Source of the DNA: Hyphomicrobium sp.
GTDB lineage: Bacteria; Pseudomonadota; Alphaproteobacteria; Rhizobiales; Hyphomicrobiaceae
Length of the DNA: 64,000 nt
Assembly (NCBI GenBank): GCA_002928955.1
Contig: PERT01000001.1
Location: 1-64,000, forward strand
Reading direction: 5' to 3'
In this document: positions 127 to 21,409 of the stretch, one piece after another
Numbering within the stretch: position 1 is the stretch's first letter
How the letters are laid out: every line of letters begins with the position of its first letter
Program-made: the position numbers and the translations under genes
Notes under the pieces: model-generated
Databases searched by the model: none
What the model saw: the letters and a program-made list of their open reading frames with translations, nothing else
Told to the model about the DNA's origin: nothing

Positions 127-927
127 TCAGGTCGGCAAGAGCAGCGCGAAGTGCTCGTCCATCGCCCGCCGCAGGATTTGGGCATAGGTTCCGTGGCAGG
201 CATGTCCCCGCCCGATCCGCCCGAAGGCAATCTCATTCAGCGCCGCGGCTGGGCCCTGCGGCTTTAACGGAACGAGTGCAATCGGTGTCGAGACCGGCGT
301 GAGCTGCGAACCGCGACCGGCCTGAAGAGTGGTCAGGATGCCGAACATTTCCCCCGTGATCGTCGGTCGCGACGCGACGATCAAACGATACTGGCCGTGG
401 CGGTTCGTCACGAGATAGATGTGGCCCGACTGGTTCGGCATCGATACCTGTCCGAACTGCGTGAAGGCTGCGTCGAGCCGGTCGGATTCGCGAAACCTCA
501 GGATCGAGGTTGCGTCGTCCCAGCCGATCTCGGTGCGGTAGGCATAGATCGCACCAGGTTCACCGAACGAAGGTCTCAGGGTCAGATAGGCACCCTCTAT
601 CCATGCCACGGCCGACCGGGAATAGTTGCCGAGCTCGTCCGGTGCCACCCCCGTAACCTGTCCCGCCGCCGCTTTGCCTGGATGCACGCCACTGAGCGAT
701 CCAGACACATTCGCCCGCAACGACATCCCGAGCGCCTGCTCGATGCGGACTGTCGTCGCGAGCGTGAAAGGGCGGCGGCCGGACAGCGCCTTCTCCAGCG
801 TCGAAATGCTGATACGTGCTTGATCGGCGAGCTGCTGGCGCGACCATCGCTTACGGGCAATCTCCTCGCGCACCCGCGTTGCAACGGCGCGGCTCTCGTC
901 CGTATTCAGGGGCTGTTCGGTGGGCAT
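127..927 (-). CDS. XRE-family helix-turn-helix regulator
   Basis: This 266-aa protein has an N-terminal Cro/C1-type HTH at about residues 15-70 (SRQQLADQARISISTLEKAL reads as the helix-turn-helix). A C-terminal region of about 190 residues, which I do not recognise, is probably a ligand or partner domain. It is divergently placed from the VIT/vWA-sortase pair, with 220 bp between starts. That gap holds a perfect inverted repeat at 995-1019, so I infer it controls itself and/or the sortase locus. Function as a DNA-binding regulator is well supported; the target is inference. Its stop codon is followed at once by hairpin repeat E. Confidence 0.8.
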   Translation of the reverse strand: MPTEQPLNTDESRAVATRVREEIARKRWSRQQLADQARISISTLEKALSGRRPFTLATTVRIEQALGMSLRANVSGSLSGVHPGKAAAGQVTGVAPDELGNYSRSAVAWIEGAYLTLRPSFGEPGAIYAYRTEIGWDDATSILRFRESDRLDAAFTQFGQVSMPNQSGHIYLVTNRHGQYRLIVASRPTITGEMFGILTTLQAGRGSQLTPVSTPIALVPLKPQGPAAALNEIAFGRIGRGHACHGTYAQILRRAMDEHFALLLPT

Positions 928-994
928 CGTTCAGCATCTCGTCTCGGGCACGCAGGAGCGCGGGCTATCGGGTGATCCTGCGCACGCACCCGCA

Positions 995-1019
995 AATGTC
1001 CGCACGAAAACCGGACATT
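995..1019. promoter_or_regulatory. candidate operator (perfect inverted repeat)
   Basis: AATGTCCG (995-1002) and CGGACATT (1012-1019) are perfect 8-bp inverted arms separated by 9 bp. They lie in the divergent intergenic region between the XRE gene start (927) and the VIT/vWA gene start (1148). Arm length and spacing suit a dimeric HTH protein. Binding by the adjacent XRE protein is inferred from position only. Confidence 0.5.
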
Positions 1020-1147
1020 CATGCCGCAACCTGGCGCGGGCGTGCCGAACAAAGCCAATCAAGACCATCGTTTTCTCCGAGGCAATCGGGCGTCATCGAA
1101 ACGGTCACCGGGCAACCGGAGGCCCGCACACCCAAGGAGTGAACAAC

Positions 1148-3520: not shown

Positions 3521-3689
3521 GGCGCGGCACCCGGAATTCGACCTCGTTCGTGACACGTCCCCGGGCGGATCCCCCGAGACCTCCTCGGCCAAGGTTCCGG
3601 CGGCGCCACGTCGATAGCGGAGACGGCAGCCCCCGCCGTCGCCGCTCTTGTCTCCAGAGATGCTTTCCCAGGTTGGTTAAAGCGCGCCC

Positions 3690-4319
3690 ATGCGGTATTC
3701 GCATTCCTTAAGAGCCGAGCGGCTGGCCGCCATGCGATGGCGTGCGCCGGTCGTGACCGCCATGCTTATGGCAGCTCTTGGGCTGGTCCTCGTCGCCCAG
3801 GGCGGTTGGGTCCACGCCAAGGCCGTGCTGGCGCAAGTGCTGTTGCAACGGGCGTTCTCGAGTGCGCTCGCACATGGGGAGCCGGTGAAGCCATGGCCCT
3901 GGGCCGATACGTGGCCTGTGGCGCGTATCGCGATCTCTCGTCTGGGTGTCAGTGCCATCGTGCTCGCCGGATCGAGCGGGCAGGCGCTGGCGTTCGGGCC
4001 GGCCCATGTCGAAGGCACACCGGACGCGGGCGACCCCGGCACCGCCGTCTATTCCGCGCACCGTGATACGCATTTCCGTTTTCTAGGTCGCGTCGGATAT
4101 GGTGATGAAATCCATGTCACTCGCAAGGATGGGCGGACTGCGCGGTTCCGTGTCACGGCTACCCAAGTTGTCAGATGGGATGCCTCGGGTATCGATGCGG
4201 CGGCGATCGGGCGCCACCTGGTGCTCGCGACGTGCTGGCCGCTCGACGCCCGAACCTCGGGTCCTGAGCGGTATCTCGTCCACGCAGAGTTCGTCGCAAA
4301 CGACGCGGCCAGCGACTGA
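3690..4319 (+). CDS. class GN (proteobacterial) sortase
   Basis: This 209-aa cysteine transpeptidase has an N-terminal membrane segment at about residues 19-38. The sortase triad is visible: His124 (YSAHRDTHF), Cys182 in the LATC motif, and Arg194 (GPERYLVH). It is expected to cleave the LPRTA motif of the upstream VIT/vWA protein. In Gram-negative bacteria this family typically sits beside a single substrate gene, as here. The start at 3690 lacks a strong Shine-Dalgarno; ATG 3732 is an alternative that would shorten the cytoplasmic tail. Confidence 0.88.
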   Translation: MRYSHSLRAERLAAMRWRAPVVTAMLMAALGLVLVAQGGWVHAKAVLAQVLLQRAFSSALAHGEPVKPWPWADTWPVARIAISRLGVSAIVLAGSSGQALAFGPAHVEGTPDAGDPGTAVYSAHRDTHFRFLGRVGYGDEIHVTRKDGRTARFRVTATQVVRWDASGIDAAAIGRHLVLATCWPLDARTSGPERYLVHAEFVANDAASD

Positions 4320-7078: not shown

Positions 7079-7439
7079 ATGCGGCCTCCAGCCGAAGTCT
7101 GGTTGCTGCAGCCCAAGGCCACCAGCCGCGTTTCATTAGGCCAACGGCGGCAACGGCGGAAGGGGCTCGCGCAGGTCTGCCACGAACATATTTTTTCAGG
7201 AGGCGTGTGCGATGGGTCTGGCACCCCGCGGTGGCTCCGGTGAGAGCGGCCGATCTGAGCGTGCTGGATCAAGCGTGGGAGGCAGCTCATGTGTCGATTG
7301 TGCTCGATTGTTTAGCCTCATCGCCGGCCCGATCATCGAGTGCATTGCAAAGACGCTGAAGATGCTCCATTTGGCTTTGGGCTCGCGACCGATCCCATGC
7401 GGGAACGTCTGCCGCGAATGACCCAGGCTTGGATTGAGC
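7079..7439. other. divergent rimK/pelA intergenic region
   Basis: This 361-bp region must contain promoters for rimK (minus strand) and the pel operon (plus strand). I see an A/T-rich run near 7187-7196, followed by AGGAGG at about 7198-7203 and ATG 7212. That pattern suggests a short leader ORF (listed separately). No convincing sigma-70 or RpoN boxes could be assigned by eye. Confidence 0.5.
7212..7421 (+). CDS. possible 69-aa leader ORF before pelA
   Basis: A strong Shine-Dalgarno (AGGAGG, eight bases before ATG 7212) opens a 69-codon frame ending shortly before pelA. The peptide starts Gly/Ser/Arg-rich and has a short hydrophobic stretch (LFSLIAGPIIECIA) and four cysteines. I recognise no family. 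The ribosome site is better than that of pelA itself, so it could be a leader peptide affecting pel translation, or a chance frame. It is listed because of the ribosome site, not because of protein-level evidence. Confidence 0.3.
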   Translation: MGLAPRGGSGESGRSERAGSSVGGSSCVDCARLFSLIAGPIIECIAKTLKMLHLALGSRPIPCGNVCRE

Positions 7440-9791
7440 ATGCGACCAACGTTCCGCAACCGCCCGAGATCTGGCTTCGAACCGAACGTTCGCAGTCGCA
7501 GCAATCGATGGCCGGCCACCATCGGCATGATGTTTTTGTCGTTATGGGCCGGACTGTTGCTCTTGCTCGCCCTGAAGATCCCGGCCGCCCAGGCCATCGA
7601 GATCGAAATCACCGAGCGCCGGATCGAGAGGGATGTGCTCGCGCTCTACGACAGCCGTGCCGAAAAACAGAGTCACGAAACGCGCATCCATCAGTTCGCC
7701 GAGATGCCGCTCAATTTTCTCGGCTTTCGCGTGAACTATCACGATATCAACGGATCGTGGCCAACACCTTCGGAAACCACCGGTTATCGCGCCGTGCTGA
7801 CGTGGTTCCTCGAACCGATGGAAGCCGAGCGTGCCGAAGCGCTTCTCAACTGGCTCGACAGCGCCACGGACCGTGGCTTGAAGCACGTTATGCTCGGTGA
7901 GATGGCACCGGGGGCCAGCGACGCCGGGTTGGCCCCATTGGTCCGGCTACATGAGCGATTGGGGCTCACCCACACCGGCGAATACATCGACATCGCCCAC
8001 AAGGCGCGGGTCGTGGCGCACAATAAATCGATGGTCGGGTTTGAACGCCCGCTCGACAAAGTTCTTCCCGACTACCCCGTGGTCGTCCCGGTCGCTGGAA
8101 AATCGGAGGCGCACCTCGTCCTCCAGGCCGACACGCGCGATGGTCCTATGCCTTCGGCCGTCGTGGCAACCTCGGCTGGAGGCGGGTTCGCGGCTTCGAA
8201 CTTCACGATCTACTTCGAGCCGACGAGCGACCGTGTACTGTGGGTGCTCAATCCGTTCGAGTTCTTCCGCCGTGCCCTCGGCTGGGAGCGGATGCCGGTT
8301 CCGGACGTCACCACGCTCTCCGGCAGGCGCATGTACTTCAGTCATGTCGACGGCGACGGCTGGAACAATCTGACTGAGATCGAGCCCTTCCGTGATCAGG
8401 AGCGGCTCTCGGCCGAGGTGATCGCCGAGGAGGCGATCATTCCGTTCCAGGATTTGCCGGTGTCCGTTGCGGTTATTGGCGGCGATCTCGATCCTGTCCT
8501 TGGCGGCAGTCGTCGCGGACAGGCGGTCGCCCGGCTCCTGTTCGCGCTGCCACACGTAGAGGTGGCGAGCCATACCTATACCCACCCTTACAATTGGTCG
8601 TTTTTCGAGGACTACAACCGGCAGACGGAAGCCGACGCGATCGCCCGCTCTCTGAAGCCAGAGCGGCCCTTGCGCGAGCAGTTCATCGGTACCCTGGCCC
8701 GTCTCGCGGGCCGCGATCCACCGCGCGGCCAGTACAACCCCTACATAGCCGGCACTGACGATCTGCCGCGGACCTATTTGAAAATGCCGTTCGAACTCGA
8801 ACAGGAGGTTAAGGGCGCGCTCAAGTTGTCTGAAAGCTTTGCCCCCAAAGGCAAGAAGGCCAAGCTCTATCAATGGAGCGGCGATACCACGCCTTTTGCC
8901 GGTGCCGTGCGGGCGACGCGTTCCGCGGGCGTGCGCAACATCAATGGCGGGGACAGTCGGCTTGACCGCGCGTTCCCATCGGTCGCATATGTGCCCGCGA
9001 TTGGTCGGCAGGCCGGCGCAGAACGCCAAATCTACGCCGCCAACTCTAATGAAAATACCTACACCAACGATTGGACAGGACCCTACTACGGCTTCTTCCT
9101 GCTGGAAGAAACGTTAAAGAACACCGAGATGCCCCGCCGGTTGAAACCGTTCAATCTCTATTACCACATGTATTCGGGGGAGAAGGCTGCGGCGCTCGCG
9201 GCCATCAAGCATTTTCTCCGCCTCGCGCGGTCGTCCGCCGTGATTCCGGTTCCGGCGTCGCTTTATGCGGCTATCGCCGATGATTTCTATACGACCGAGA
9301 TTCGCAAGGTGGACACCGAGGTGTGGGAGGTCTCCAACCGAGGCGCACTGCAGACTGTTCGCTTCGACGATGCCGGGTCGCTCGCACTCGATCTCGACAA
9401 CAGCCGTGGCGTGCTAGGTGCGACGATGCACAATGGGTCGTTGTACGTCGCACTCGACTCCGCCGTCGACGTCGCGCGCGTTGCACTCAGGGCCGAGAAC
9501 CGTGAATCGCCCGAATTGTCCGGCCGCGGTGCCATGCTAGTCGAAGCACGGTGGCAGATTCGCAACCGGCGCGAGGAGGACTGCGGGATGAGCGTCGACG
9601 CCGAGGGGTTTGGGCGTGGCGACATGATCTGGCGCACCCGGGCGGGACGCGCATTCGAGGTGGTGCTCTTCCGTGGCGCTCGTGAGCTGTCGCGTGAGAT
9701 CGTCAGGGCCGGAGCAGACGGTCTGTTTCGGCTGCAACTCGAGCCGGACGCTCTAGACCCGGTGACCTTGAGGTTCACCTGCCATGAGTAG
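7440..9791 (+). CDS. pelA: PelA-type polysaccharide deacetylase without hydrolase domain
   Basis: This protein is about 783 aa with an N-terminal membrane segment (about 30-50) ending PAAQA, so it is exported or anchored to the periplasm. The part after it aligns by eye with the middle and C-terminal regions of Pseudomonas PelA. Residues 62-280 form the alpha/beta region. The deacetylase core has SHVDGDGWNN (D304, D306) and ASHTYTHPYNW (H378, H382), the metal-binding Asp-His-His set of the CE18-type domain. A beta-rich C-terminus follows. The GH166 hydrolase domain at the N-terminus of P. aeruginosa PelA is absent, which matches the shorter length. It is first in the pel operon and overlaps the next gene by 8 bp. 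Confidence 0.85.
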   Translation: MRPTFRNRPRSGFEPNVRSRSNRWPATIGMMFLSLWAGLLLLLALKIPAAQAIEIEITERRIERDVLALYDSRAEKQSHETRIHQFAEMPLNFLGFRVNYHDINGSWPTPSETTGYRAVLTWFLEPMEAERAEALLNWLDSATDRGLKHVMLGEMAPGASDAGLAPLVRLHERLGLTHTGEYIDIAHKARVVAHNKSMVGFERPLDKVLPDYPVVVPVAGKSEAHLVLQADTRDGPMPSAVVATSAGGGFAASNFTIYFEPTSDRVLWVLNPFEFFRRALGWERMPVPDVTTLSGRRMYFSHVDGDGWNNLTEIEPFRDQERLSAEVIAEEAIIPFQDLPVSVAVIGGDLDPVLGGSRRGQAVARLLFALPHVEVASHTYTHPYNWSFFEDYNRQTEADAIARSLKPERPLREQFIGTLARLAGRDPPRGQYNPYIAGTDDLPRTYLKMPFELEQEVKGALKLSESFAPKGKKAKLYQWSGDTTPFAGAVRATRSAGVRNINGGDSRLDRAFPSVAYVPAIGRQAGAERQIYAANSNENTYTNDWTGPYYGFFLLEETLKNTEMPRRLKPFNLYYHMYSGEKAAALAAIKHFLRLARSSAVIPVPASLYAAIADDFYTTEIRKVDTEVWEVSNRGALQTVRFDDAGSLALDLDNSRGVLGATMHNGSLYVALDSAVDVARVALRAENRESPELSGRGAMLVEARWQIRNRREEDCGMSVDAEGFGRGDMIWRTRAGRAFEVVLFRGARELSREIVRAGADGLFRLQLEPDALDPVTLRFTCHE

Positions 9792-11391
9792 TGCAGAGGT
9801 TCGAGCGCGGGTCGAGCCCCATATGGTCATCATGGGCCTGGTTTTCGCCTCAGCCCTCGTTGCCGGGTACATGCTGCTGCCCGGTGAAAATGAACGGGTC
9901 GCGATGCTCGAGCGCGATGGCAAGAACCTGCAGGCGCTGGGTATTCTGGAAGCCCGTTTCGACGCCGGTGATCGGCGTGCGCGGACGCTCTACCAGTTGG
10001 TCGGACTTTACGAGCAATTCGGTCAAATCCCGCGCCTCAAGACGACGCTGGAAGCGCTTGCCGAAGCGCGACCGCGCGATGTCCAGGTTCGCCGACGGTT
10101 GGCCCAGTTCTATTCGGCCACCCAGGACAACGAGAGTTATCTCGCTGCCCTCGAGCAGGAGATCGACGTCAAGTATTCCGAAGCTGCGTGCAGGGAGTTA
10201 ATAGGACTTCATCGCCTGAAGGGCGAGTTCGCAAAGGAACAGGCGGCGATTGTCAAATGCCGTCAGCGCGGCTATCGGCGCGCCGAGGACGTGGTGCGGC
10301 TTGCGGAACTGTTTGCAGCCGACGGCGATGCCGTGCAGGCCGCGCAGCTGTTGCGGAACGTCGATGATTTGAAGCGCTTGAAGAGCGATCGGGAACGGTT
10401 GCAACTGTTCACGATGCTGGTTGAAGCCGACCAGCCCAAAGAAGCCCAGCGGCGCGCTGTGCGCTGGATTAAGGTGTCTCGTGACAAGGAGTTCACGCTG
10501 ACCTTGATCGAGACCCTCGTGCGAAGCCGACGTCACGACGACGCCATCGCGCTCGCCCGGGAAACCAGCCAGCCAGGCGACGCGATCTCCTTGACGGTCG
10601 CTGAAATCATGCTCGATCGCGGCGAGACGGTCGCTGCGCGCGCTTATCTGCGAGGGTGGGCCGTGAGTGCGAAATCGCCGTCCCTGGATACGACGATGCG
10701 CTTCAACGATGCGGCGCTCGATGCCGAAGACGCAGAGACGGCTTTCAGCTTTTCATCGGCGTTCGGCCTGGCGCGTTTGCCGCAGCTGCAACTGGTTGCA
10801 CTTGCGGAGGCATTGAGCGTCATCGGAAGAAAGCCGAGTGTCGAGGCGGTCCGTGCGGTCCTGACCACTGAAACGCTGGCATCGAACCCGCTGCTTGGCG
10901 CCGCCGAGGAGCTGGGCCGCGGTCAGAAGGAGGCCTCCCGCGAACTGTTGAATAGGGTTGAGCCGGAGAAGCTCGATGCTTGGAAACTGACCTTATGGGC
11001 GCGGCTGATGCAGGAGACGGGCCGGGGAGGCGAGGCGCAAACCAAGCTGCGGAGTTTGGGCGTTGTTTCCGAACGGCCAGCCGACACGCCGCTCGCGTCG
11101 GCAGCCGTGCCGGCTGTCTCGGTAGTGGCGTCGCGGGGCGGGGCGGCCATCGCCGCCAAACCAGCGGCCGAGCAGGCGACGAGAATTCTGCGGCGCAAGA
11201 AGCGGGCAAAACGGTTCCAGGTTCGCAATGTGGTCCGGCCCCCGGGTGTTGCAGCCGGCGCCGTCGCGAAGGAGCCGGCAGGGAAGGACATCGAGAAGGA
11301 CCAGAAAGAACAGAAGAATCAAAAGATTCAGAAAGATCAAAAGGACCAGAAGAGTGCCGCGCCTTCGTTCACATGGCCGTTTTCCAAGTAG
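9784..11391 (+). CDS. PelB-like TPR membrane protein lacking the beta-barrel
   Basis: This 535-aa protein has one N-terminal membrane helix (about residues 15-33). A long helical TPR-type region follows (about 45-420, with repeated patterns such as ARTLYQLVGLYEQFGQIPRLKTTL). The low-complexity C-terminus is rich in Lys, Gln and Asp (about 500-525) and ends FTWPFSK. Position and TPR content match the N-terminal part of PelB, but P. aeruginosa PelB is about 1190 aa and ends in an outer-membrane beta-barrel that is missing here. It is probably a periplasmic scaffold guiding the polymer or PelA. The PelB assignment is by synteny and architecture. Confidence 0.7.
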   Translation: MSSAEVRARVEPHMVIMGLVFASALVAGYMLLPGENERVAMLERDGKNLQALGILEARFDAGDRRARTLYQLVGLYEQFGQIPRLKTTLEALAEARPRDVQVRRRLAQFYSATQDNESYLAALEQEIDVKYSEAACRELIGLHRLKGEFAKEQAAIVKCRQRGYRRAEDVVRLAELFAADGDAVQAAQLLRNVDDLKRLKSDRERLQLFTMLVEADQPKEAQRRAVRWIKVSRDKEFTLTLIETLVRSRRHDDAIALARETSQPGDAISLTVAEIMLDRGETVAARAYLRGWAVSAKSPSLDTTMRFNDAALDAEDAETAFSFSSAFGLARLPQLQLVALAEALSVIGRKPSVEAVRAVLTTETLASNPLLGAAEELGRGQKEASRELLNRVEPEKLDAWKLTLWARLMQETGRGGEAQTKLRSLGVVSERPADTPLASAAVPAVSVVASRGGAAIAAKPAAEQATRILRRKKRAKRFQVRNVVRPPGVAAGAVAKEPAGKDIEKDQKEQKNQKIQKDQKDQKSAAPSFTWPFSK

Positions 11392-11558
11392 GAACGGATG
11401 GCATGCCGTCTGACAACACCAAGCGTCCGGCGTTCTGCTTCGCGGGGGGTGAGCGGGGCATGTCTACTGCAGTGCAACCCCGCTTCGCGTTCATTGGTGG
11501 AATTGGCCGATCGGTTCTGCTTTGGTATCCGTCACTGAAAAACCTTTGAGGACAGGGC

Positions 11559-12716
11559 GTGCGTAACATGAAGACCTTAGGCGAACGAGAGCGCCAGCCG
11601 GGTGCCTCATCCGCACTTATGGTTCTGCCTCCGGTTTCGGCTGTATTCGAACTCGGGGCGATTGTCGCTCTGATCAACTTCGTCGATTGGCTGTTGCCCA
11701 GCTACGGTCTCGGTGAAGTAGGCCCAAGTCCCTACTGGCTTGCGGTTCTGCTGCTTAGTCTTCAGTACGGCACCGTCAGCGGATTGATGGCGGCTGCCAT
11801 CGCCATTCTATTGACCATGCTGCCCGGCATTCCTGAGCAGGGTGTCGGCGAGAACCATTTTGCCTTCCTGTTGAGGATCTGGGTGCAGCCGATCCTATGG
11901 ATCGCGGTTGCGGTCTTGCTCGGGCAGTTCCGGATGCGCCAGATAGCCGTCAAGGAAGAATTGACGCGACAGGTGCAGGAACTCGCCAATCAGCGGCAGG
12001 CGTTGGCGGATTATTCGAACAATCTCCGCAGCAGATGCGAGGTGCTTGAGCGCCACATAGCCGGGCAGCAGAGATCGCCCGCAACCGCTCTACTGTTGGC
12101 ACAGCAGGCGCTCGGTCGGCCTGACAGCGATCTCGGCACCGCCCTGGCCAAGTCCGTCGCGCTGTCCATTCATGGTGGTCAGGCATCGGTGTATGCGTTG
12201 GAGGGCCTGCAACTTGAAAAGCGCGCGGACAGCGGCTGGTTCAACAACCATTCGTGGGCGAACGCATTGCCGGCCGGGCACCCGCTCTACCGGGCTGTCG
12301 TCGATCGCGGAGAAAGTGTGATCGTGCTCGATACCGGGGGCGAAGCCGCCTTGTCAGGCGAAGGAGTTGCCGCCGTTCCGATCCGGTCGGCAGTCAACGG
12401 TGCTGTGGTTGGGATGCTCAAGTTGGAAGCGGCATCACCAACCGCAATCGCGCCAGAGACCGTTGTCGCGCTCGAGGTAATGGCCCAGGTCCTTTCGTGC
12501 CGCTTTGCTGGCGCCGGGCTTGTCGCGCAATCGCCCACGGCGCGCCCGGCGACTGCCGATACCCAGCGCACGACATCGCCTGGCAACCTGCGCAGCTTCT
12601 TCAGCCAGACAATGAACTGGATGCCGTCAAAGGCCAAGACGCCGGATCTCGATAATAATGACGGCGAACGCGTGGCAAGCAGCACTGGCGGCAGTCGGCC
12701 GCGGGCCGTGCGCTGA
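11559..12716 (+). CDS. pelD: PelD-like membrane GAF protein lacking GGDEF
   Basis: This 385-aa protein has about four N-terminal membrane segments (about 23-123), a coiled-coil helix (130-170) and a GAF domain (about 185-315). The order matches PelD, the inner-membrane regulator of Pel polymerisation. P. aeruginosa PelD is about 455 aa and ends in a degenerate GGDEF domain that binds c-di-GMP through an RxxD site. Here the GAF domain is followed only by a Ser/Thr/Pro/Arg-rich tail (about 320-385) with no such domain. The start is GTG 11559 after GAGGACAGG; ATG 11568 is an alternative. A 167-bp gap separates it from the previous gene. Confidence 0.82.
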   Translation: MRNMKTLGERERQPGASSALMVLPPVSAVFELGAIVALINFVDWLLPSYGLGEVGPSPYWLAVLLLSLQYGTVSGLMAAAIAILLTMLPGIPEQGVGENHFAFLLRIWVQPILWIAVAVLLGQFRMRQIAVKEELTRQVQELANQRQALADYSNNLRSRCEVLERHIAGQQRSPATALLLAQQALGRPDSDLGTALAKSVALSIHGGQASVYALEGLQLEKRADSGWFNNHSWANALPAGHPLYRAVVDRGESVIVLDTGGEAALSGEGVAAVPIRSAVNGAVVGMLKLEAASPTAIAPETVVALEVMAQVLSCRFAGAGLVAQSPTARPATADTQRTTSPGNLRSFFSQTMNWMPSKAKTPDLDNNDGERVASSTGGSRPRAVR

Positions 12717-12717
12717 G

Positions 12718-13782
12718 ATGGCCCATTCAGCGCCAGCGGCAGCGGGATTGGCGGGAAAAGAGCATGTCGCCGTCGCGGCCAATGCTTCGGCTCGCGCTTA
12801 CGCGAGCGTCCAGCGTTTGGCCATTGGAGCGTTCCTGGCCGAGGTTTTGTTGGCAATCGCGCACGTGGGGTTCGGCGCGGGTTTTGTCGTCACGGCGCTC
12901 GGTCACTTGGTTATCGTCGCTGCCTGTAGCGGTTGGCTCTTGAGCGTGCCTTCGGGGCGTCCGCTCGGTGGCGCGACGGCTCACGACATGGTGCCGGGGG
13001 CCATGGTTGTCGCCGCCACCACGGTCGCGGGGCCGATAGGAGCCCTATTCGCGCTTGCGATCCCGACTTTCCTTGCGCGCCCGATGACGCCGAGCCCGCT
13101 GCTCGATGCCTGGTACCAGCGAATTGCGCAATCAGGTGAAATCGATCCTGAAACGCGCCTCTGCGACAACGTCAGCAGCGGCCGCACCATGGATCTGGCG
13201 GCCCCCCCGCCTCAATCCTTCGTCGAGGTCATGAGCCATGGCGGACTTGCCGACAAGCAGTCAGCTCTCGGATTGATCGCGCGCCGGTTCCATCCTGATT
13301 ACCTCCCGGCGCTGGCGGTCGCCCTAAAGAGTCCGGAGCCGGTGGTGCGGGTCCAAGCGGCCGCCGTCGCCGCTCGCGTGCGAAACGGATTGAAGTCCCG
13401 TGTCAGGGCTCTGCTCGACGAGGTCGACGCGGCTGTCGTTTCGCCGCAGGTTGCCGCGTGCCGGCCGGAGCTGGCCAAGGCCGTCGCATCGGGCTTGCTC
13501 GACGCGTCCGACCGCGTGCGTGCCGAAGCAGCACTGGCACGGTTTGCCGACGGCTTGGCCTCGTCCGCGGCGTCGTCGTCGGCAGTCGCACCCGGAGGCC
13601 CGTCCGAGACGGTTCGAGCGGTCCAGAGCTTCAAGGCGTTGCGCGTCAGTCGCCGGGTCCGGCTGATCGAAGCGAGCGGGCGCTACGTGGTTCGCGACTG
13701 GGCCCTGAGAGTCCGTGGCTCCAGCGCAAGATCGGGTGCGCCCTTGTCACGGCCTGACCTTTCACCGGAGGTCAATTTGTGA
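12718..13782 (+). CDS. pelE: PelE-like membrane protein
   Basis: This protein is about 354 aa from ATG 12718, which lies one base after the pelD stop; ATG 12658 in the same frame would overlap pelD by 59 bp. There are two hydrophobic regions (AFLAEVLLAIAHVGF with GHLVIVAACSGWLL, then AMVVAATTVAGPIGALFALAI). A cytoplasmic HEAT/TPR-like helical domain follows (DKQSALGLIARRFHPDYLPAL, PEPVVRVQAAAVAARV). PelE is the partner of PelD in the inner-membrane synthase complex. The assignment rests on position between pelD and pelF plus this architecture. It shares a 4-bp GTGA overlap with pelF. Confidence 0.75.
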   Translation: MAHSAPAAAGLAGKEHVAVAANASARAYASVQRLAIGAFLAEVLLAIAHVGFGAGFVVTALGHLVIVAACSGWLLSVPSGRPLGGATAHDMVPGAMVVAATTVAGPIGALFALAIPTFLARPMTPSPLLDAWYQRIAQSGEIDPETRLCDNVSSGRTMDLAAPPPQSFVEVMSHGGLADKQSALGLIARRFHPDYLPALAVALKSPEPVVRVQAAAVAARVRNGLKSRVRALLDEVDAAVVSPQVAACRPELAKAVASGLLDASDRVRAEAALARFADGLASSAASSSAVAPGGPSETVRAVQSFKALRVSRRVRLIEASGRYVVRDWALRVRGSSARSGAPLSRPDLSPEVNL

Positions 13783-15329
13783 ACGAGCACACGTTTCGGG
13801 CCACGGCATCCGTTCCGCGCAAGGCAACTCCTGAAGCCGATATCTGCATCATCGTCGAGGGCTGCTACCCTTACGTGCCTGGTGGCGTGTCGTCATGGAT
13901 CGACTGGTTGATCAGGTCGCAGCCGCAAACGACCTTCGCCGTTGTCACGTTATGGCCGCGTCCCACCGATCAGAAGCCGCGGTATGCCTTGCCAGAAAAC
14001 GTTGTGGCTCTGCGGCATGTCTACCTGCAGGATTTTGGCGGCCGTCCGCGGGCCAATCTCCCCTTGCCCCCTGGGATTGAGGCGCTGGGCCGTTCGCTCA
14101 ATCGTCTGACCACGCGGGGCGGTGCCGAAGCGCTCTGGGAAACCACCGCCGCCCTCGACGCGATGCGCGGCCACGTTGCACTACCTGTGCTGTTTAATTC
14201 GCCCATAGCCTGGCAACTCGTGCAGGAGATGTACGAAGCTGAAATGCCATACGGCTCCTTTCTGCACTATTTCTGGGCATGGCGCGCGTTGCTGGGCGGC
14301 CTGTTCGCCACGCTCGAGTTCAAGCTGCCTGAGGCTCGGGTCTATCACACGATTTCGACGGGCTACGCGGGCGTGCTGGCGGCGCGTGCGGCACTTGAGA
14401 CGGGAAGGCCCGCACTGCTCACGGAGCACGGCATCTACACCAACGAGCGTCGGGTCGAGCTGCTGATGGCGGACTGGGTGGCCGATACGGTCGACAAGGG
14501 TCACACGCTCGACGATCCCCGCTTCGATCTGCGCGACATGTGGGTGCGTGCGTTCGAGGCCTACGCCCGTACCTGCTACGAAGCATCTACCGAGGTCGTG
14601 ACCCTTTATCAGGACAATCAGCGACTGCAACGGGCGCTCGGGGCCGACGAGGACAAGCTCCGTGTCATCGCCAACGGCATCGACGTGTCGAAGTTCTCCC
14701 GCCTCACTCAAGCCAGCGATACGGCAAGGCCGACCATGGCGCTGATCGGCCGCGTAGTCCCGATCAAGGATATCGAGACGTTCATCGCGTCGGCCAGGAT
14801 TGTGCGCGAGCGGATACCCGAGATCCGTGCCCTGATCATCGGGCCGACCGACGAGGATCCGGACTACTTCGCCGCCTGCCGGGCGCTCGTCGCGGAACTC
14901 GGGTTGGTCGACACGGTGGAATTTACCGGTCAGGTCAGCATCCTCGAGTACCTGCCTCACGTGCATGTGGCCGTCCTAACGTCGCTGAGTGAAAGCCAGC
15001 CTCTCGTCGTCCTCGAAGCCGGCGCGGCAGGTATCCCGTTCGTTGCGACCAATGCGGGCTCGTGCCGCGAGATCATCGAAGGCCGGGCTGATGAGGTCCC
15101 ACCACTCGGGCCCGGCGGCATCGTCACGGATTTGGTGGCGCCTGATCAGATCGCGGACGCGGTCTGCGTCTACCTGACAGAACATGAGCAGCGGCGGGCC
15201 CACGGCAACGCACTTCGCCGGCGCGTAGAAGCAACCTACACGTCCGAGCGTGCGGCTGCAGCGTACCGTGATCTCTACCTGAGGCTCTGCCTGGAGCCAG
15301 GCAAGGGCACGTCTCGGGAGATGATGTGA
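13779..15329 (+). CDS. pelF: Pel polymerising glycosyltransferase PelF
   Basis: This 516-aa GT4-type cytosolic glycosyltransferase is expected to polymerise UDP-activated N-acetylhexosamine into Pel. The N-terminal motif IIVEGCYPYVPGGVSSWIDW is characteristic of PelF. A C-terminal GT-B half has LIGRVVPIKDIETFI and the EX7E motif ESQPLVVLE. The start is GTG 13779 with GGAGG upstream, overlapping the pelE stop as GTGA. pelG follows one base after its stop, so translation is probably coupled. Confidence 0.95.
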   Translation: MNEHTFRATASVPRKATPEADICIIVEGCYPYVPGGVSSWIDWLIRSQPQTTFAVVTLWPRPTDQKPRYALPENVVALRHVYLQDFGGRPRANLPLPPGIEALGRSLNRLTTRGGAEALWETTAALDAMRGHVALPVLFNSPIAWQLVQEMYEAEMPYGSFLHYFWAWRALLGGLFATLEFKLPEARVYHTISTGYAGVLAARAALETGRPALLTEHGIYTNERRVELLMADWVADTVDKGHTLDDPRFDLRDMWVRAFEAYARTCYEASTEVVTLYQDNQRLQRALGADEDKLRVIANGIDVSKFSRLTQASDTARPTMALIGRVVPIKDIETFIASARIVRERIPEIRALIIGPTDEDPDYFAACRALVAELGLVDTVEFTGQVSILEYLPHVHVAVLTSLSESQPLVVLEAGAAGIPFVATNAGSCREIIEGRADEVPPLGPGGIVTDLVAPDQIADAVCVYLTEHEQRRAHGNALRRRVEATYTSERAAAAYRDLYLRLCLEPGKGTSREMM

Positions 15330-15330
15330 C

Positions 15331-16815
15331 ATGGCAGGCATTGGCTTTGAATTGCGCCGCCTCGGGCGACAGGAAACGCTCTCGTCGCTGGCGTCCGCTT
15401 TCGGGCACGCGGCTATCGTGGCGGCGGGCCCCTGGCTGTTCACCATCCTGAGCCTCGCCATCATCACTTTCACGGTCGAGCAGATCGTCGGCCTCGATAC
15501 GCTGGCCACATTCCGCATTATCATTATCTACGCGTTTGCGACGTCGCTGGTCATCACGTCGCCGGTGACGATCGTTGCCACGCGGCTTGTCGCCGATGCG
15601 CTCTGGCTCAAGAAGACCGACGCCGTCCGTCCCCTGTTGATTGGGGCCTTCGGCCTGTCGGTCATTCTTGTCGCTCCGTGCGCGGCTATGCTGGTGTTTT
15701 ACTTCAATGTGCCTTCGGGCGTGGCGCTGGTGCTGACGGCGATGTCTTTGACCGTCGCTCTCATATGGGTCGCGCTCAGTTTTTGTGGTGCGGTCCGCGA
15801 TTATCTGGCGGTGACGCTGGCCTTTCTGTTCGGGCTCATCGTGTCGCTCGTCCTCAGCATCGGAGCGGCGCTTTCAGGTCTTGGGCCTACCGGTATGGCC
15901 TGGGGCTTCCTTGTCGGCCTTGTCTTGATCCTGTTCGGCCTGACGCATCGTGTGCTGATGACGTTCCCGGCACCGGTTGCCGACATCCGCGACGGGTTCG
16001 CGGCCATGATCGACGGCATCGGGCGCTATCGTCTGCTGGCGTTCGGCGCGCTTGCGGGAACCGCGGCGGTGTGGATCGACAAATGGGTGTTCTGGTTCTC
16101 GTTGCAGGGTGAGAAGGTGGATGCAGGGCTTATCCACGCACCGCTCTACGACAGCGCGATGTTCATCGCATCCCTCGTCATCATCCCGTCGCTGGCGCAA
16201 TTTGTGATGCGCCTCGAAACCGAGTTTTTCGACCGCTACCATACCTATTTCGGCACCATCAAGTCACACGGCACCATTCGCCAGATCGAGGCCGCACGCG
16301 TGCGGATGAAGAGCTTCACACTCGATCATCTGGTACTCATCACCGTGTCGCACGTCGGCATTTGCGCGGTGCTCATTCTGGCCGCACCCGCCATCGTTGA
16401 TCTTCTCAACCTTCAGTATCGTCAGATTGCCATCCTGCGTTTCGGTGCGCTCGGATCGGTGTTTCAATTCATCTTCATCGCGACGACGGCCATGCTGCTG
16501 TTCTTCGACCGCCGCAAGTTGTTCCTGACGCTGCAGCTCACATTCTTCGCTCTCAACCTCGTTTTGTCGATGTGGAGCGTATCGGCGGGCGAGGAATATT
16601 ATGGTGTCGGCTACTTCATGGCCTGTCTCATTTCGAGCTTCATCGCCTATGTCGTGGCCGATCGAACGTTCACAAATCTCAACTACCTGACCTTCATCGG
16701 CAACAATCCGTCGGTGCGCGAGGCGGCGTCATCGGTGTCGGCCCAACGGCGCGGCATGCCGACGATTTTCCGCGAGGCGGTACTCGCGATCATGCCTCGA
16801 AGACGTCGAAGTTGA
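15331..16815 (+). CDS. pelG: Pel transporter PelG (MOP/MATE-like)
   Basis: This 494-aa protein has about twelve hydrophobic segments. Its start MAGIGFELRRLGRQ is typical of PelG, the polysaccharide-transporter-fold membrane protein thought to move the growing Pel chain across the inner membrane with PelD/E/F. It is somewhat longer than the roughly 456-aa P. aeruginosa protein because of a C-terminal basic tail (REAVLAIMPRRRRS). The last 26 bp overlap the 3' end of the opposing GH114 gene, so the two transcription units collide here. Confidence 0.95.
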   Translation: MAGIGFELRRLGRQETLSSLASAFGHAAIVAAGPWLFTILSLAIITFTVEQIVGLDTLATFRIIIIYAFATSLVITSPVTIVATRLVADALWLKKTDAVRPLLIGAFGLSVILVAPCAAMLVFYFNVPSGVALVLTAMSLTVALIWVALSFCGAVRDYLAVTLAFLFGLIVSLVLSIGAALSGLGPTGMAWGFLVGLVLILFGLTHRVLMTFPAPVADIRDGFAAMIDGIGRYRLLAFGALAGTAAVWIDKWVFWFSLQGEKVDAGLIHAPLYDSAMFIASLVIIPSLAQFVMRLETEFFDRYHTYFGTIKSHGTIRQIEAARVRMKSFTLDHLVLITVSHVGICAVLILAAPAIVDLLNLQYRQIAILRFGALGSVFQFIFIATTAMLLFFDRRKLFLTLQLTFFALNLVLSMWSVSAGEEYYGVGYFMACLISSFIAYVVADRTFTNLNYLTFIGNNPSVREAASSVSAQRRGMPTIFREAVLAIMPRRRRS

Positions 16816-18277
16816 GCCGGTCCAACTCGCGGTCTTTTGGCGCGACGTAGAGGACGTAGCCCGCGGTTTTCATATAAACGGCGGCTTCGGCGATCTTGGC
16901 GGGGGTGTCGAGATACTCGACCACCAGCACCGCCTTTCCAGCCGACTTGGCGAAATCGAGGGCGCCCCGTGCCTCCTGCACTTCGCTCTTGGAGTTCTTG
17001 CGTTCCGGGCCAGACAGACCGAACAGCAGTTCTTCCTTGGCCACCCCATCAATGGCTGCCATGACACCCTCGTGCTCAAGCAGGTTTTCGGTGTTCTGCA
17101 TTACCATGAGGAATCCCGGTGCCTTCGATTTAGCATACCGCGACAGCTGGCTGATGAACGCCACCATGTCGCCTTCGATGTCGGGTCGTGTCTTGGCGGC
17201 CTTGCGGTCGCGCCGCTCGAGATCCTCGAATACGTCGCATTTGTCGAGGTAGACGCCGTCGAAACCGGCCGCGATAATCTTGTCGAGATAGGCCGTGGGT
17301 GAGCCGAACATAAGCCGCTGCCAGCCCGGGTCCCAGAAACAGACGGAATAGTTCTCCCTCCACTCCGGATTCTCCGACAACAACCACGCAGGCTTGTTCA
17401 ACGCCCACGTCGCATCCCAATAATAGCGATAGCTCTCGGCCTCGCCGACAGAGAGGTAAGAGAGGATCAGGCGCGAGCCCCCATTCGGCTTCTGCCGGAT
17501 GCGCTCGACATCTTTTGGTCTGAGTGCGGTTTCGTCCGAGCCATCGCGCGCATAGTCGACCACCAGCACGTCGAATGGTGAGTCGGCGGCTCGTTTCAGG
17601 TTGAGGCTCTGTAATTGGTAGCCCCAGCTCGTGGCGTTGAGCAGAGGGTTCAGGTCCCGTGTCACGGTCGGACGTCGAGGCTTGGCTTCGCCTGGCGTGT
17701 GTGACCGGTTCGTCCTCTGGTCAGCCGGGGGCATGGACGAAGCCGAGGCCTTCGCGGTGCCGCCAGCGATAGCGGGCGGAGGCGCGCTCGTTCGCTTTGG
17801 TGCCATGTCCGCCTCTTGGTTGGTGGTGGGGTTGGATCGGGGAGAGCGCGGAACGCTCGCCGCATGCGGCACAACAGTATCGTGGACCCCACCTCTTCCG
17901 GCCGCTGCGGGTGGTGGGGTCGACGTTCGCCGCTCAGCCGCAATGTCTGAGCCGGAGGGTCCGTCGGCGGAACGACGCTCAGCGGCGGCTGGCGGCGGAG
18001 GTACGCCTGACCGGCGCGGTGGGTTCGGTCCTGTCAGGTGGTCATCGGTTGCGGCGACCTCCTGCCATTCACCGGCCAAGGCCGGAGGCGGTGCTACGCC
18101 AGAGCGCGGTGGAACGCGGCGGGCCATCTCGGGCTTGGCCGAACTGGTCGGACCGGGCGCGTCCTGGCCGGAGGTCGGGCTATGGTTTCGAAGCCGCCGC
18201 CGCCAGACGAGGTAGAGGACCGCCGCCGCCAGCAGAATGACCGCGATCCAAAGCAGTGTGGTCGTCGAAATCGGCAT
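16790..18277 (-). CDS. membrane-anchored GH114-type glycosidase
   Basis: This 495-aa protein has an N-terminal membrane anchor (7-25), then a disordered Pro/Ala/Ser linker to about 210 with four copies of a short R-x-S-x-x-PPP-A-x-A unit (58-69, 89-99, 117-127, 162-172). A TIM-barrel-like domain (217-495) of the endo-alpha-1,4-polygalactosaminidase (GH114, TM1410/MJ1477-type) family follows. Family acids are present: D241 (VVDYARD), E279 (SVGEAESYR), D340 and D345 (FDGVYLDKCD). Pel contains alpha-1,4-linked GalN/GalNAc, so Pel is the likely substrate. It is convergent with pelG, with 26 bp overlap. The fold is well supported; the substrate is inference. Confidence 0.85.
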   Translation of the reverse strand: MPISTTTLLWIAVILLAAAVLYLVWRRRLRNHSPTSGQDAPGPTSSAKPEMARRVPPRSGVAPPPALAGEWQEVAATDDHLTGPNPPRRSGVPPPPAAAERRSADGPSGSDIAAERRTSTPPPAAAGRGGVHDTVVPHAASVPRSPRSNPTTNQEADMAPKRTSAPPPAIAGGTAKASASSMPPADQRTNRSHTPGEAKPRRPTVTRDLNPLLNATSWGYQLQSLNLKRAADSPFDVLVVDYARDGSDETALRPKDVERIRQKPNGGSRLILSYLSVGEAESYRYYWDATWALNKPAWLLSENPEWRENYSVCFWDPGWQRLMFGSPTAYLDKIIAAGFDGVYLDKCDVFEDLERRDRKAAKTRPDIEGDMVAFISQLSRYAKSKAPGFLMVMQNTENLLEHEGVMAAIDGVAKEELLFGLSGPERKNSKSEVQEARGALDFAKSAGKAVLVVEYLDTPAKIAEAAVYMKTAGYVLYVAPKDRELDRLNFDVFEA

Positions 18278-18298
18278 GACAGGGTGTTCCCATGGTGC

Positions 18299-18322
18299 GG
18301 AGCCCGGATGTCAGCGGGCTCC
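18299..18322 (-). other. stem-loop before the third GH114 gene
   Basis: GGAGCCCG (18299-18306) pairs with CGGGCTCC (18315-18322) across an 8-nt loop, ending 22 bp upstream of the ATG at 18277 on the minus strand. It lies in the 197-bp gap between two GH114 genes. It could attenuate or stabilise read-through mRNA. No U-tract follows, so it is not a classical terminator. Confidence 0.4.
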
Positions 18323-18474
18323 CGGTGTGCGGCAGAGGGCAGCCGACACACTAACCAACGTCTGCGCCGGGGGGGATAACCGATTGTGACAGCGAAGTCA
18401 CCCGCTGCGCCCTGTCCATCATAGCGACTGGTCGGCGGCCGCATTGGGTCGCCCGTTGCCTATGATCGCACGCA

Positions 18475-19458
18475 CTAACGAATGGGTTGTGTCCCCTCCC
18501 GTACAGATCGGAGCGTACCAAGCGAGCGTTCCGTGAGCAAAAATACGAAGCCCTCACGCGCCATGCGCCGCTCCGCTTCACGCGCCAGTTGCGGATCGCT
18601 GAGGTACTCGACCGCCCAAACTGCAAGCCCGGACTTCTTCGCCAGCCTCAAGTCATCAAGCGAGCCGGCAACCATCTCCGGAGGGTTGGCTTTTTCGATA
18701 TGTTCGACGCCATAGAACAAATCTTCCTTTGCAATACCGTCGAGGGTCGCACGAAGCGCTCTGTTCGCCACGAGTTCTTCCGCGTTCTGCATGATCACGA
18801 AGAATCCCGGATTGCTGCGACGGGCGTGGCCCGACAGGGCCACAATGAACGCCGCCATTTCGCTCTTGCCATCGGGGTTATCCTTGATCAGTTCGGCATA
18901 GACGTCGGCGCGGTCGAGGTAGATCCCGTCGAACCCCTGCGCCACGATCCGGTCGACGTAGGCGTCGGGTGCTCCAAAAATCAGACGCTGCCATTCCGGG
19001 TCCCAGAACTTGACGGGGAAGTTCCCGTCCCACCGCGGGTTGACTTGCCCTAGCCAAGCCGGCCGTGTCGGGGGCAGATACCAGTCCTGTTTCCAGTAGA
19101 ACCGGTAGCGCTCTGCTTCGCCGATGGAGAGGTATGCGAGGAGCAGCCGGCGGCTGCCGTCAGGGCGGATTTTCATCGCCGCCACCTCGTCAGGGGTGAA
19201 CTCGCGCAGGAAACGGCGGTTGGCCGAGATCGCGTGGTCGATGACCGCCAGATCGAAGGGCGATGCCGCGACATCGGCCGGTTCGATGAACCGCAGCTGA
19301 TAGGCCCAGGTTTTGACGTTCGCGAGGACAGCCCGACGTTGTTTCGCAGTGGCAGCAGCAGCAGCGGCCTCCTTGTCGCGCGGCGCGGCCTGCATGATGG
19401 TTGCGCACGCCGAAAGGCTCGAAATGATGGCGACCGCGAGCGAAAGCAGATTGCGCAT
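18475..19458 (-). CDS. GH114-type glycosidase lipoprotein
   Basis: This 327-aa protein starts at ATG 19458, with GGAAGG five bases upstream; a longer frame to 19482 lacks this site. The signal peptide ends in a lipobox LSAC with Cys18, so it is a lipoprotein. Residues about 50-315 form the GH114-type barrel with D74 (AVIDHA), E114 (SIGEAERYR), D177 and D182 (FDGIYLDRAD) and VIMQNAEEL. It is closely related to both neighbours. It lies 38 bp after the upstream paralogue's stop, so the two probably share a transcript. Likely role: trimming Pel-like polymer at a membrane surface (inferred). Confidence 0.87.
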   Translation of the reverse strand: MRNLLSLAVAIISSLSACATIMQAAPRDKEAAAAAATAKQRRAVLANVKTWAYQLRFIEPADVAASPFDLAVIDHAISANRRFLREFTPDEVAAMKIRPDGSRRLLLAYLSIGEAERYRFYWKQDWYLPPTRPAWLGQVNPRWDGNFPVKFWDPEWQRLIFGAPDAYVDRIVAQGFDGIYLDRADVYAELIKDNPDGKSEMAAFIVALSGHARRSNPGFFVIMQNAEELVANRALRATLDGIAKEDLFYGVEHIEKANPPEMVAGSLDDLRLAKKSGLAVWAVEYLSDPQLAREAERRMAREGFVFLLTERSLGTLRSVREGTQPIR

Positions 19459-19496
19459 GTTGGCCTTCCGGTGCGAACCCACCCGATTATTTCATG

Positions 19497-20639
19497 TCAG
19501 AAATTCACGCCGGGCAGCCACAGTGCGCCCAGATCCCGTGGACCGATATATGGGATGAAGCCCTGGCTTTCGATCTTCTTCTTGGCGTCGCTGATCTTGG
19601 TACGGTCCTTTACGTAATCGACCACGAACACCGGCCGGCCCGCGGCTCGGGCGCGCTTTAAGTTTGCAATCGAGTAGCGCACCGCATCTGCGCTGTTCGG
19701 TCCTTGCGAATAATCGACGCCGTAGAACAGGTCTTCCTTGGCGACAGCGTCGATGGCGTCGATCATCGTCTTGTGGGCCAGCAGTTCCTCCGCATTTTGC
19801 AGGATGACCATGAACCTAGGGTTCCTTTTGCGCGCATGAGCAGCAAGGCGAGCCACGAACTCGACCATCTTGGCTTCTGCGTCGGGGCACTCCTTCTTGA
19901 CCTCGCTGTAGACGTCGACGCGGTCGAGATAGACGCCGTCGAGGCCAAGCTCGATCAGCCGGTAGAGAGGCGAGAGCTCGATGCTGTTGTAAATATTCAA
20001 GCCATTGTCATCACCAAGGATCGTTTTCTGCCAGCCCTCGGTGCAGAAGCGGATGATGCGATTGCCCCTCCATTGCGGGTTCTCGTGCAACAGCCAGTCG
20101 GGAGCATCCTCGGTCATGTACTCGGTGCTGAAATAGTCCGGCCGGTAGTCCTCCGCCTCCCCGATCGACAGATAGGATACGACGAGGCGCTTCGAGCCGT
20201 CCGATTTCGTCCTGAGGCTTGAGACTTCGTCGGGGCGGAAAGGCCGGTCGGCCGCGAGTCCCGTTGTGGCGTCAACAACCAGGAGATCATAGGGCGAGCG
20301 GGCTGCGTCTTCGACCTTAAGGCCGTTCAATTGGTAACCCCAGCTCCGGACCGCGGATATGCGTGCGAGGCGATCGGCTCGTGCGGCTGCAACAGAGGCA
20401 GATGTGGGTGATGTGGCGGCCGGCGCCGGCGTGGCCGAGGGGGGAGCCGTGGGTTGCGGCGTTGGTCGCTTGGCCGGCCGTGGTGCAGGTGGTGGTGGAA
20501 GCGCTGTATCGTCCGCGTTTCGCGCTAGGCCGGCACCGGAAAGTGCGCCGAGTATGGCCAGGCAGGTTGAGAGTAAAACCCAGCCGGCGCAGAACCCGCC
20601 CGGACGACCTTTCGGAACGCTGTTTCTGCAACCCAGCAT
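19497..20639 (-). CDS. exported GH114-type glycosidase
   Basis: This 380-aa protein has an N-terminal signal or anchor segment (about 18-38), then a Pro/Ala/Thr-rich linker (45-82) and a GH114-type domain (about 95-380). Conserved acids are D123 (LLVVDATT), E161 (SIGEAEDYR), D234 and D239 (LDGVYLDRVD). It contains VILQNAEELL and a FYGVDYSQG segment like its paralogues. It is first gene of the minus-strand GH114 group, and its promoter should lie in 20640-20801. No lipobox is visible, so it is either released to the periplasm or held by an uncleaved signal. Substrate inferred as for its neighbours. Confidence 0.86.
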   Translation of the reverse strand: MLGCRNSVPKGRPGGFCAGWVLLSTCLAILGALSGAGLARNADDTALPPPPAPRPAKRPTPQPTAPPSATPAPAATSPTSASVAAARADRLARISAVRSWGYQLNGLKVEDAARSPYDLLVVDATTGLAADRPFRPDEVSSLRTKSDGSKRLVVSYLSIGEAEDYRPDYFSTEYMTEDAPDWLLHENPQWRGNRIIRFCTEGWQKTILGDDNGLNIYNSIELSPLYRLIELGLDGVYLDRVDVYSEVKKECPDAEAKMVEFVARLAAHARKRNPRFMVILQNAEELLAHKTMIDAIDAVAKEDLFYGVDYSQGPNSADAVRYSIANLKRARAAGRPVFVVDYVKDRTKISDAKKKIESQGFIPYIGPRDLGALWLPGVNF

Positions 20640-20712
20640 GGCGAATCCCCGCGACTCTGGCGCATCCAGAGGCCTAACAGGCGCCTATTTCATGTCAATC
20701 AACACAATGCAC

Positions 20713-20766
20713 CATGGCCTTTGGCCGGCAATACGGCCGAAAGCGTGCCATTTGGCCAAAATTTTT
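20713..20766. other. GC-rich hairpin followed by T-run
   Basis: CTTTGGCCG and CGGCCGAAAG form an imperfect hairpin. A second palindrome, TTTGGCCAAA, follows directly and runs into ATTTTT on the plus strand. It sits between the start of the first GH114 gene (20639) and the small membrane protein (20802). It may end transcription in this gap, though no plus-strand gene obviously needs it. Confidence 0.3.
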
Positions 20767-20801
20767 CGAGCAACAACGGTCTTGGATGGTCCGAAGTGAG
20801 A

Positions 20802-20999
20802 TCAGCCTTGCCGCACCGGCGTCTGTTCGGCCGGCAGCTCAGCGGCTGGATCGATCGAGGAATGAAGAAGCCACGCGCTGGCACTTACGACGACTGCCAG
20901 AATGGCGATACCGACAATGGCCTGACGAACGACCCAGGCGGCCGGCGAACGATGGCGCAGACCCAAGTTGATCTCGGTGGCGGGCGTCGTGGTCGTCAT
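20802..20999 (-). CDS. small single-pass membrane protein
   Basis: This 65-aa protein has a good ribosome site (AGAGGAAGAGC then ATG 20999). One transmembrane helix lies at about residues 23-45 (VVRQAIVGIAILAVVVSASAWLL), with a basic cytoplasmic N-terminus and a short acidic periplasmic tail. No family recognised. It lies on the same strand as, and 162 bp upstream of, the GH114 group, so it could belong to that transcription unit; a hairpin with a T-run lies between them. Confidence 0.55.
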   Translation of the reverse strand: MTTTTPATEINLGLRHRSPAAWVVRQAIVGIAILAVVVSASAWLLHSSIDPAAELPAEQTPVRQG

Positions 21000-21409
21000 G
21001 CTCTTCCTCTGTGTCGTGGGACGTCTGTCGGTGCCGGCCGTGGATGCAGCTGCGGAGTGGTGGCGACTAACTCATGGCGCATCATCTGGGCAAAGTGCGG
21101 GCCGGGTGGGGGCGAATATCAGGCGTGTAGGACAACGCTACTGGAGCTGATCCGGGCAACAGGTCAAGGCGGGCGATGAAGTCGAGGCGATATGAACGGC
21201 CTGGCGTGTCCTGGCCGCAACGATCGGCATGCGGATCAGCGTCGTCCCGCCTCGTTTGGCGCGCCGGACGATTGCCCCCTGGCGGTTCGTCCCGGTGTAA
21301 CGTCAGATGGAAAAAATAATACAAAACAGCATTTTGCTGATCTTCGGCATCGTTCCGGCATTTGCTCTGTAACGGTCTGCGAGGGGAAGCAATAGTCTGA
21401 ACCCGCCCA
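21000..21409. other. non-coding gap
   Basis: The 410 bp between the small membrane protein start and the 3' end of the MFS gene hold no convincing gene on either strand. The only structure seen is a small hairpin plus T-run at 21311-21339 facing the MFS transcript. Confidence 0.5.
21311..21339 (-). terminator. candidate terminator after the MFS gene
   Basis: Read on the minus strand, CAGCA-AAA-TGCTG is followed by a T-rich tract (TTTTGTATTATTTTTT), about 70 bp past the stop codon at 21410. The stem is only five pairs, but the U-tract is long and the region is unusually A/T-rich for this genome. Confidence 0.4.

Follow-up and report, generated by a model that had tools for sequence, protein, structure and literature searches.

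The window, which here means the whole 64,000-nucleotide stretch of Hyphomicrobium sp. DNA that was analysed, contains a Pel-type locus in which PelA consists of a deacetylase with no hydrolase domain. In our judgment, the missing hydrolase step is rather likely to be supplied by three separate enzymes of the recently defined family GH191, encoded convergent to pelG, which would trim the polymer for release or clearance. Pel is among the most widespread of the biofilm polymers. In Pseudomonas aeruginosa the hydrolase, the deacetylase, and the porin constitute one periplasmic unit, and the binding of c-di-GMP by PelD switches Pel on.

Organization of the locus

The host genome amounts to 3.48 Mb in 114 contigs and is 98% complete. 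Its nearest public relative is a Hyphomicrobium MAG, with a PelG identity of 97%. The gene order on the plus strand from 7440 to 16815 is pelA, a TPR gene, a pelD-like gene, a gene in the pelE position, pelF, and pelG. Following pelA (7440-9791) is the gene for a PelB-like TPR protein (9784-11391), recognized by a TPR profile match, which has an N-terminal membrane segment and no β-barrel. The PelD-like protein (11559-12716) contains membrane and GAF regions, and its C-terminal domain, in the GGDEF position, is absent. The PelE-position membrane protein (12658-13782) displays HEAT/TPR-like repeats; the HEAT matches are weak, and in other pel loci its homologues occupy the interval from pelD to pelF. 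PelF, a GT4 glycosyltransferase (13779-15329), and the exporter PelG (15331-16815) were matched by NF038011 and PF16933 with E-values of 3e-128 and 1e-106, respectively.

The minus strand from 16790 to 20639 harbors three genes matching PF03537/TIGR01370, hereafter copies a, b, and c, with copy a adjoining pelG. Copy a (16790-18277, E-value 7e-22) is characterized by an N-terminal membrane anchor, a Pro-rich linker, and a catalytic domain with Asp 345 and Glu 415. Copy b (18475-19482, E-value 9e-21) has a Sec signal, Asp 190, and Glu 253, and copy c (19497-20639, E-value 4e-25) has a Sec signal, a Pro-rich linker, Asp 239, and Glu 302. The 3' ends of pelG and copy a overlap in convergent orientation over 26 bp (16790-16815), and, as judged from the ORF ends, an identical 26-bp overlap exists in the related loci L009, L010, and L011. 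The three genes run head-on into pelG, as an earlier note on this DNA had stated. A scan of 16600-21300 for promoters and terminators gave results at chance level.

Just upstream of the pel genes, at 920-4319, are encoded a sortase target protein (TIGR03788, VIT and VWA) and then a class GN sortase (TIGR03784). The pairing of the marine proteobacterial sortase target with the class GN sortase is already known.

PelA and the distribution of its hydrolase

The start of pelA is an ATG at 7440, with a TTG at 7434 also open, and the stop lies at 9791. When numbered from the TTG, the deacetylase residues are His 304, Asp 306, Asp 308, His 380, His 384, Glu 540, and His 578. All seven are present and correspond to the full P. 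aeruginosa set of His 526, Asp 528, Asp 530, His 600, His 604, Glu 723, and His 761 (PMC12022489); the CE21 motifs are intact. The Asp 304/Asp 306 and His 378/His 382 pairs cited previously are correct when numbered from the ATG. No family was assigned to PelA by the Pfam and NCBIfam profiles. In a phmmer search, the protein aligned with P. thermotolerans PelA (9cgy) starting at chain residue 257 of the latter, a region that represents the beginning of the mixed α/β domain (PMC12022489). The AlphaFold model, calculated with 21 homologues (pLDDT 84.9), likewise had 9cgy as its best match, and the PelA hydrolase-domain entry (5tcb) was not found among the 50 structure matches listed for it. The profiles, the start of the alignment, and the model matches thus bear out the contention that this PelA is devoid of a hydrolase domain: it is composed of a mixed α/β domain, the CE21 deacetylase, and a C-terminal β domain, without GH166.

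It had further been proposed that hydrolysis was moved to separate proteins in this lineage, and that part of the reading is not supported. In a survey of 80 pelG loci, fused GH166-PelA proteins were observed in the Campylobacterota and in one gammaproteobacterium (L040), many of the beta- and gammaproteobacterial loci ending at a contig or flank edge and being uninformative on fusion. No hydrolase domain was found in any alphaproteobacterial PelA examined with its N-terminus present, and for most alphaproteobacterial pel loci the hydrolase-less PelA is paired with a stand-alone glycoside hydrolase gene, located within the locus or next to it. Nine genomes (G212, G249, G323, G325, G375, G510, G546, G574, and G242) have a stand-alone gene of the GH166 type whose end coincides with or lies close to the pelA start, in a different frame or overlapping it. 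Given that the split PelA is class-wide in the Alphaproteobacteria, loss of a hydrolase domain in the window lineage was rejected. The lineage shed no domain; rather, it carries another hydrolase family in another place, with GH191 genes 3' of pelG as opposed to the GH166-type genes upstream of pelA in most Alphaproteobacteria. No hydrolase gene was found upstream of the window pelA, where RimK-like and other genes are located. One genome, G391, combines a hydrolase-less PelA with no linked GH191 or GH166 gene, and thus the hydrolysis step may be dispensable.

Four loci from the Campylobacterota (L047, L059, L060, and L086) contain two tandem PelA genes, one of which shows a partial GH166 match only.

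The three convergent genes belong to GH191

With respect to both sequence and fold, the closest solved relatives of copies a, b, and c are Env-GH191 (9ep5) and TM1410, the two enzymes by which GH191 is defined, followed by PelAH (5tcb). Identities to the solved GH191 members are 26-27%. In a tree of 77 sequences, constructed by a quick method with SH-aLRT supports only, GH191 (support 98), the GH166-type sequences including the PelA domains (98), and true GH114 (100) were all separate, and the three window proteins grouped with TM1410 and Env-GH191, outside of the GH114 and GH166 clades. Assignment to GH114 sensu stricto was rejected by the tree placement and the best PDB matches, and membership in GH166 was rejected because the PelA hydrolase domains form a clade of their own. 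The earlier description of the genes as GH114-type is right in that three PF03537 genes of an endo-galactosaminidase family are present, but the label is outdated and the family is GH191.

Of the two characterized GH191 enzymes, Env-GH191 cleaves Pel and TM1410 (TmGH191) showed no activity on fungal GAG oligomers; the family is described as active on GalN-rich polymers more broadly (PMC12054363). Across 29 GH191 sequences the catalytic Asp and Glu do not vary, and both are retained in copies a, b, and c. To our knowledge, a single activity has been demonstrated for GH191 and no physiological role has been assigned to it. Thermotoga maritima, the source of TM1410 and thus of the family founder, was the only PelG match among 14 control genomes.

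Copies a, b, and c represent three distinct lines in the tree (supports of 99, 93, and 100), each of which contains sequences from the window and from L009, L010, L011, and L012. The presence of each line in five loci indicates an old triplication whose members have been retained. In comparison with two relatives, the dN/dS values of the three genes are 0.12-0.30, indicative of purifying selection. Additional Hyphomicrobiaceae loci contain three convergent copies (G650), two (G624), or one that is co-directional (G646), and in G669 three tandem copies reside on a contig other than that of pel. At 12776-14419 and 16660-17760 of L011 are found two unrelated genes that separate copy a from copy b, together with an additional GH191 gene, the fourth, which is very divergent.

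Association of GH191 with pelG

Among 385 alphaproteobacterial genomes, PF03537 was found in 19 of the 20 with pelG versus 9 of the 365 without it (Fisher p = 2e-24). These counts mix GH191 with true GH114, the sole match in G277 and G391 being GH114-type, and the class-level test was therefore repeated with true GH114 removed. GH191/GH166-type genes were present in 17/20 pelG-positive versus 3/365 pelG-negative genomes (p = 7e-24). Within the Hyphomicrobiaceae (103 genomes, with L009-L012 taken as identical to G663, G665, G668, and G649, respectively, and counted once), all 15 that possess pelG carry four to nine PF03537 genes. Any such gene occurs in 6 of the 88 genomes without pelG (p = 1.3e-13); for two of these the completeness is just 54% and 73%. 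GH191 is thus tied to Pel in every pelG-positive genome of the family, and the whole GH191 set, beyond the linked trio, tracks pel. The co-occurrence in relatives that the earlier note had made a touchstone for its GH114-type genes was, in fact, found. Many new candidate biofilm-dispersing enzymes are hereby on offer.

Five additional GH191 genes are located away from pel in the window genome (C50, C59, C32, C56, and C3; L127-L131). They carry signals or anchors and have no obvious polysaccharide neighbors.

Missing components and a possible export route

The TPR protein at 9784-11391 matches just the N-terminal portion of full-length PelB, by way of the shared TPR profile. No match to the PelB β-barrel was obtained with PF24604 or porin profiles in either the locus or the genome (98% complete, 114 contigs). 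In most Alphaproteobacteria the barrel is encoded by a separate PF24604-like gene. A PelB porin elsewhere in the window genome was considered and rejected, since there were TPR-type partial matches only. Between the pelB-like gene and pelD are 167 bp, which leaves no room for pelC at that position in the locus. The window PelD ends after its GAF domain, and a profile of the C-terminal (GGDEF) domain built from 68 other loci matched 0 of 14 Rhizobiales-type loci (13 full loci and the partial L046). A single clade of the PelG tree, with a support of 100, unites the 13 full loci, which come from the Hyphomicrobiaceae, Methylobacterium, Pseudovibrio, Aureimonas, and Bosea. Both the PelB barrel and the PelD GGDEF domain are absent from a Pel branch that constitutes a single PelG clade, and neither absence was remarked on in the earlier note. 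The branch is conserved though it is without three of the P. aeruginosa parts, and it provides a natural test of which of these are essential.

The outer-membrane step in the window locus would not proceed via a PelB porin. In three Methylobacterium loci, Aureimonas ureilytica, Bosea, and G646, a Poly_export/SLBB gene (OPX, Wza-type) is positioned between pelG and the hydrolase gene, and in A. endophytica an OPX gene likewise follows pelG. The OPX loci are L013-L015 and L027-L029, between or after pelG, together with L154 (6119-7561) and L156 (3357-4865); in the last of these, the second pel locus of G650, the OPX gene lies upstream. No OPX gene is found beside the window locus, and two short ones occur on other contigs of the window genome. 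OPX is a candidate replacement for the PelB barrel in the porin-less Rhizobiales loci, which suggests the pairing of a synthase-dependent polymer with an OPX channel.

The second pel locus of G650 (C23:172000-190000) is divergent and contains OPX, pelD-G, TPR, and GH166-type hydrolase genes; PelA was not found in it.

Predicted location of the hydrolases and their proposed role

The signals of copies b and c are of the Sec type, with basic N-termini, and both proteins look periplasmic. A lipobox (LSAC) occurs in copy b of the window only. It is absent in L009, the relative with 97% PelG identity, and lipoprotein anchoring as a general trait of copy b was consequently rejected. Copy a contains a single hydrophobic segment with no Lys or Arg before it and four after. 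In its orthologues the corresponding numbers are 0 and 3 in L009 and 0 and 2 in L011, and in L010 there are none following the nearest Met and one after the segment. The L012 orthologue lacks both signal and anchor, such that the anchor is kept in four of the five. According to the positive-inside rule, which is a rule of thumb, copy a is probably anchored in the inner membrane with its N-terminus out and its C-terminus in, thereby placing the catalytic domain in the cytoplasm. We know of no precedent for a Pel hydrolase in that compartment. The idea that chain length or release might be tuned by an anchor thus retains its footing for copy a and loses it for copy b. Opposing transcription had likewise been suggested as a possible means of tuning; what was observed in this respect is the conserved convergent overlap.

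In the mechanism that we propose, PelF would polymerize a Pel-type GalNAc/GalN polymer, PelG would export it across the inner membrane, and PelA would deacetylate it. The endo-hydrolase step of the P. aeruginosa GH166 domain would be performed by the three GH191 enzymes convergent to pelG. Following their export, copies b and c would cut the partly deacetylated Pel in the periplasm, giving rise to short chains that can be released and removing polymer that has stalled, and copy a, held at the inner membrane, would probably work on polymer on the cytoplasmic side of that membrane. The role suggested for copies b and c is based on analogy. In P. aeruginosa the PelA hydrolase yields secreted low-molecular-weight Pel and lowers adherence (PMC9894940), and in Bacillus cereus loss of the stand-alone PelAH increases biofilm (PMC7112168). 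Speaking against the proposal are the lack of activity shown by TM1410 on fungal GAG, the five GH191 genes away from pel, the possible cytoplasmic placement of copy a, and G391.

Given the missing PelB barrel, the hydrolases may credibly serve to remove stalled polymer, either instead of or in addition to trimming Pel for release. Quality control as their only function, with no influence on exported chain length, would fit the occurrence of porin loss and GH191 expansion in one PelG clade, the probable cytoplasmic orientation of copy a, and the four to nine copies per genome. We nevertheless regard it as unlikely, for porin-keeping Alphaproteobacteria also retain a stand-alone hydrolase by pelA, and other porin-less Rhizobiales have one linked copy rather than three, so that copy number does not track porin loss. 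Still less probable is that the secreted enzymes scavenge or attack foreign galactosamine polymers, their proximity to pel being a regulon or historical effect. Although the five unlinked copies and the reported activity of GH191 on GalN-rich polymers generally are in keeping with such a function, the family is nearly absent from relatives without pelG, three orthologous lines have been kept beside pelG, and copy a either carries a membrane anchor or, as in L012, has no export signal. A decaying cluster of little function is highly improbable: the PelB barrel, the PelD GGDEF domain, GH166, and space for pelC between pelB and pelD are indeed missing, but the dN/dS values for the seven locus genes tested are 0.07-0.30, the catalytic motifs are intact, and the architecture is shared by one PelG clade of several genera.

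Trimming of Pel by the three GH191 enzymes for release or clearance is thus the reading that we favor. A broader and distinctly more tentative extension of it is that the Rhizobiales loci may form a Pel class with OPX or other export, no c-di-GMP gating via PelD, and GH191 enzymes active on either side of the inner membrane, one such enzyme trimming nascent polymer in the cytoplasm.

Comparison with known systems

A deacetylase-only PelA accompanied by a stand-alone, oppositely transcribed hydrolase is already known in Gram-positive bacteria (PMC7112168), as are rearranged pel operons (PMC7112194). In the full-text literature searched, outside of which most subscription papers lie, no description was found of either GH191 or OPX in pel loci, of a three-gene GH191 array in a Gram-negative pel locus, or of a barrel-less and GGDEF-less Pel branch.

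Like TM1410 and Env-GH191, the window hydrolases have the GH191 fold and the catalytic Asp and Glu, but they differ in being Pel-linked, tandem, and equipped with anchors or signals. The derived pel cluster of free-living Rickettsiales is also alphaproteobacterial and, in the portion of its published account considered here, has PelB and PelE replaced (PMC9352585). The related loci L019, L021, L022, and L026 are not members of the Rhizobiales PelG clade; L022, the one for which the relevant region is covered, retains a porin. With pelDEADAFG of B. cereus ATCC 10987 the window locus shares the deacetylase-only PelA, the stand-alone and opposed hydrolase, and the lack of outer-membrane parts; unlike it, the window locus is Gram-negative and has a TPR protein, a PelD without GGDEF, and three GH191 genes 3' of pelG. 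In common with P. aeruginosa pelABCDEFG are PelF, PelG, a PelA deacetylase with all of its catalytic residues, and a pair of proteins in the PelD and PelE positions, in the same order, whereas the window locus is distinguished by the absence of GH166 in PelA, of the PelB barrel, of room for pelC between pelB and pelD, and of the PelD GGDEF domain, and by its three convergent GH191 genes.
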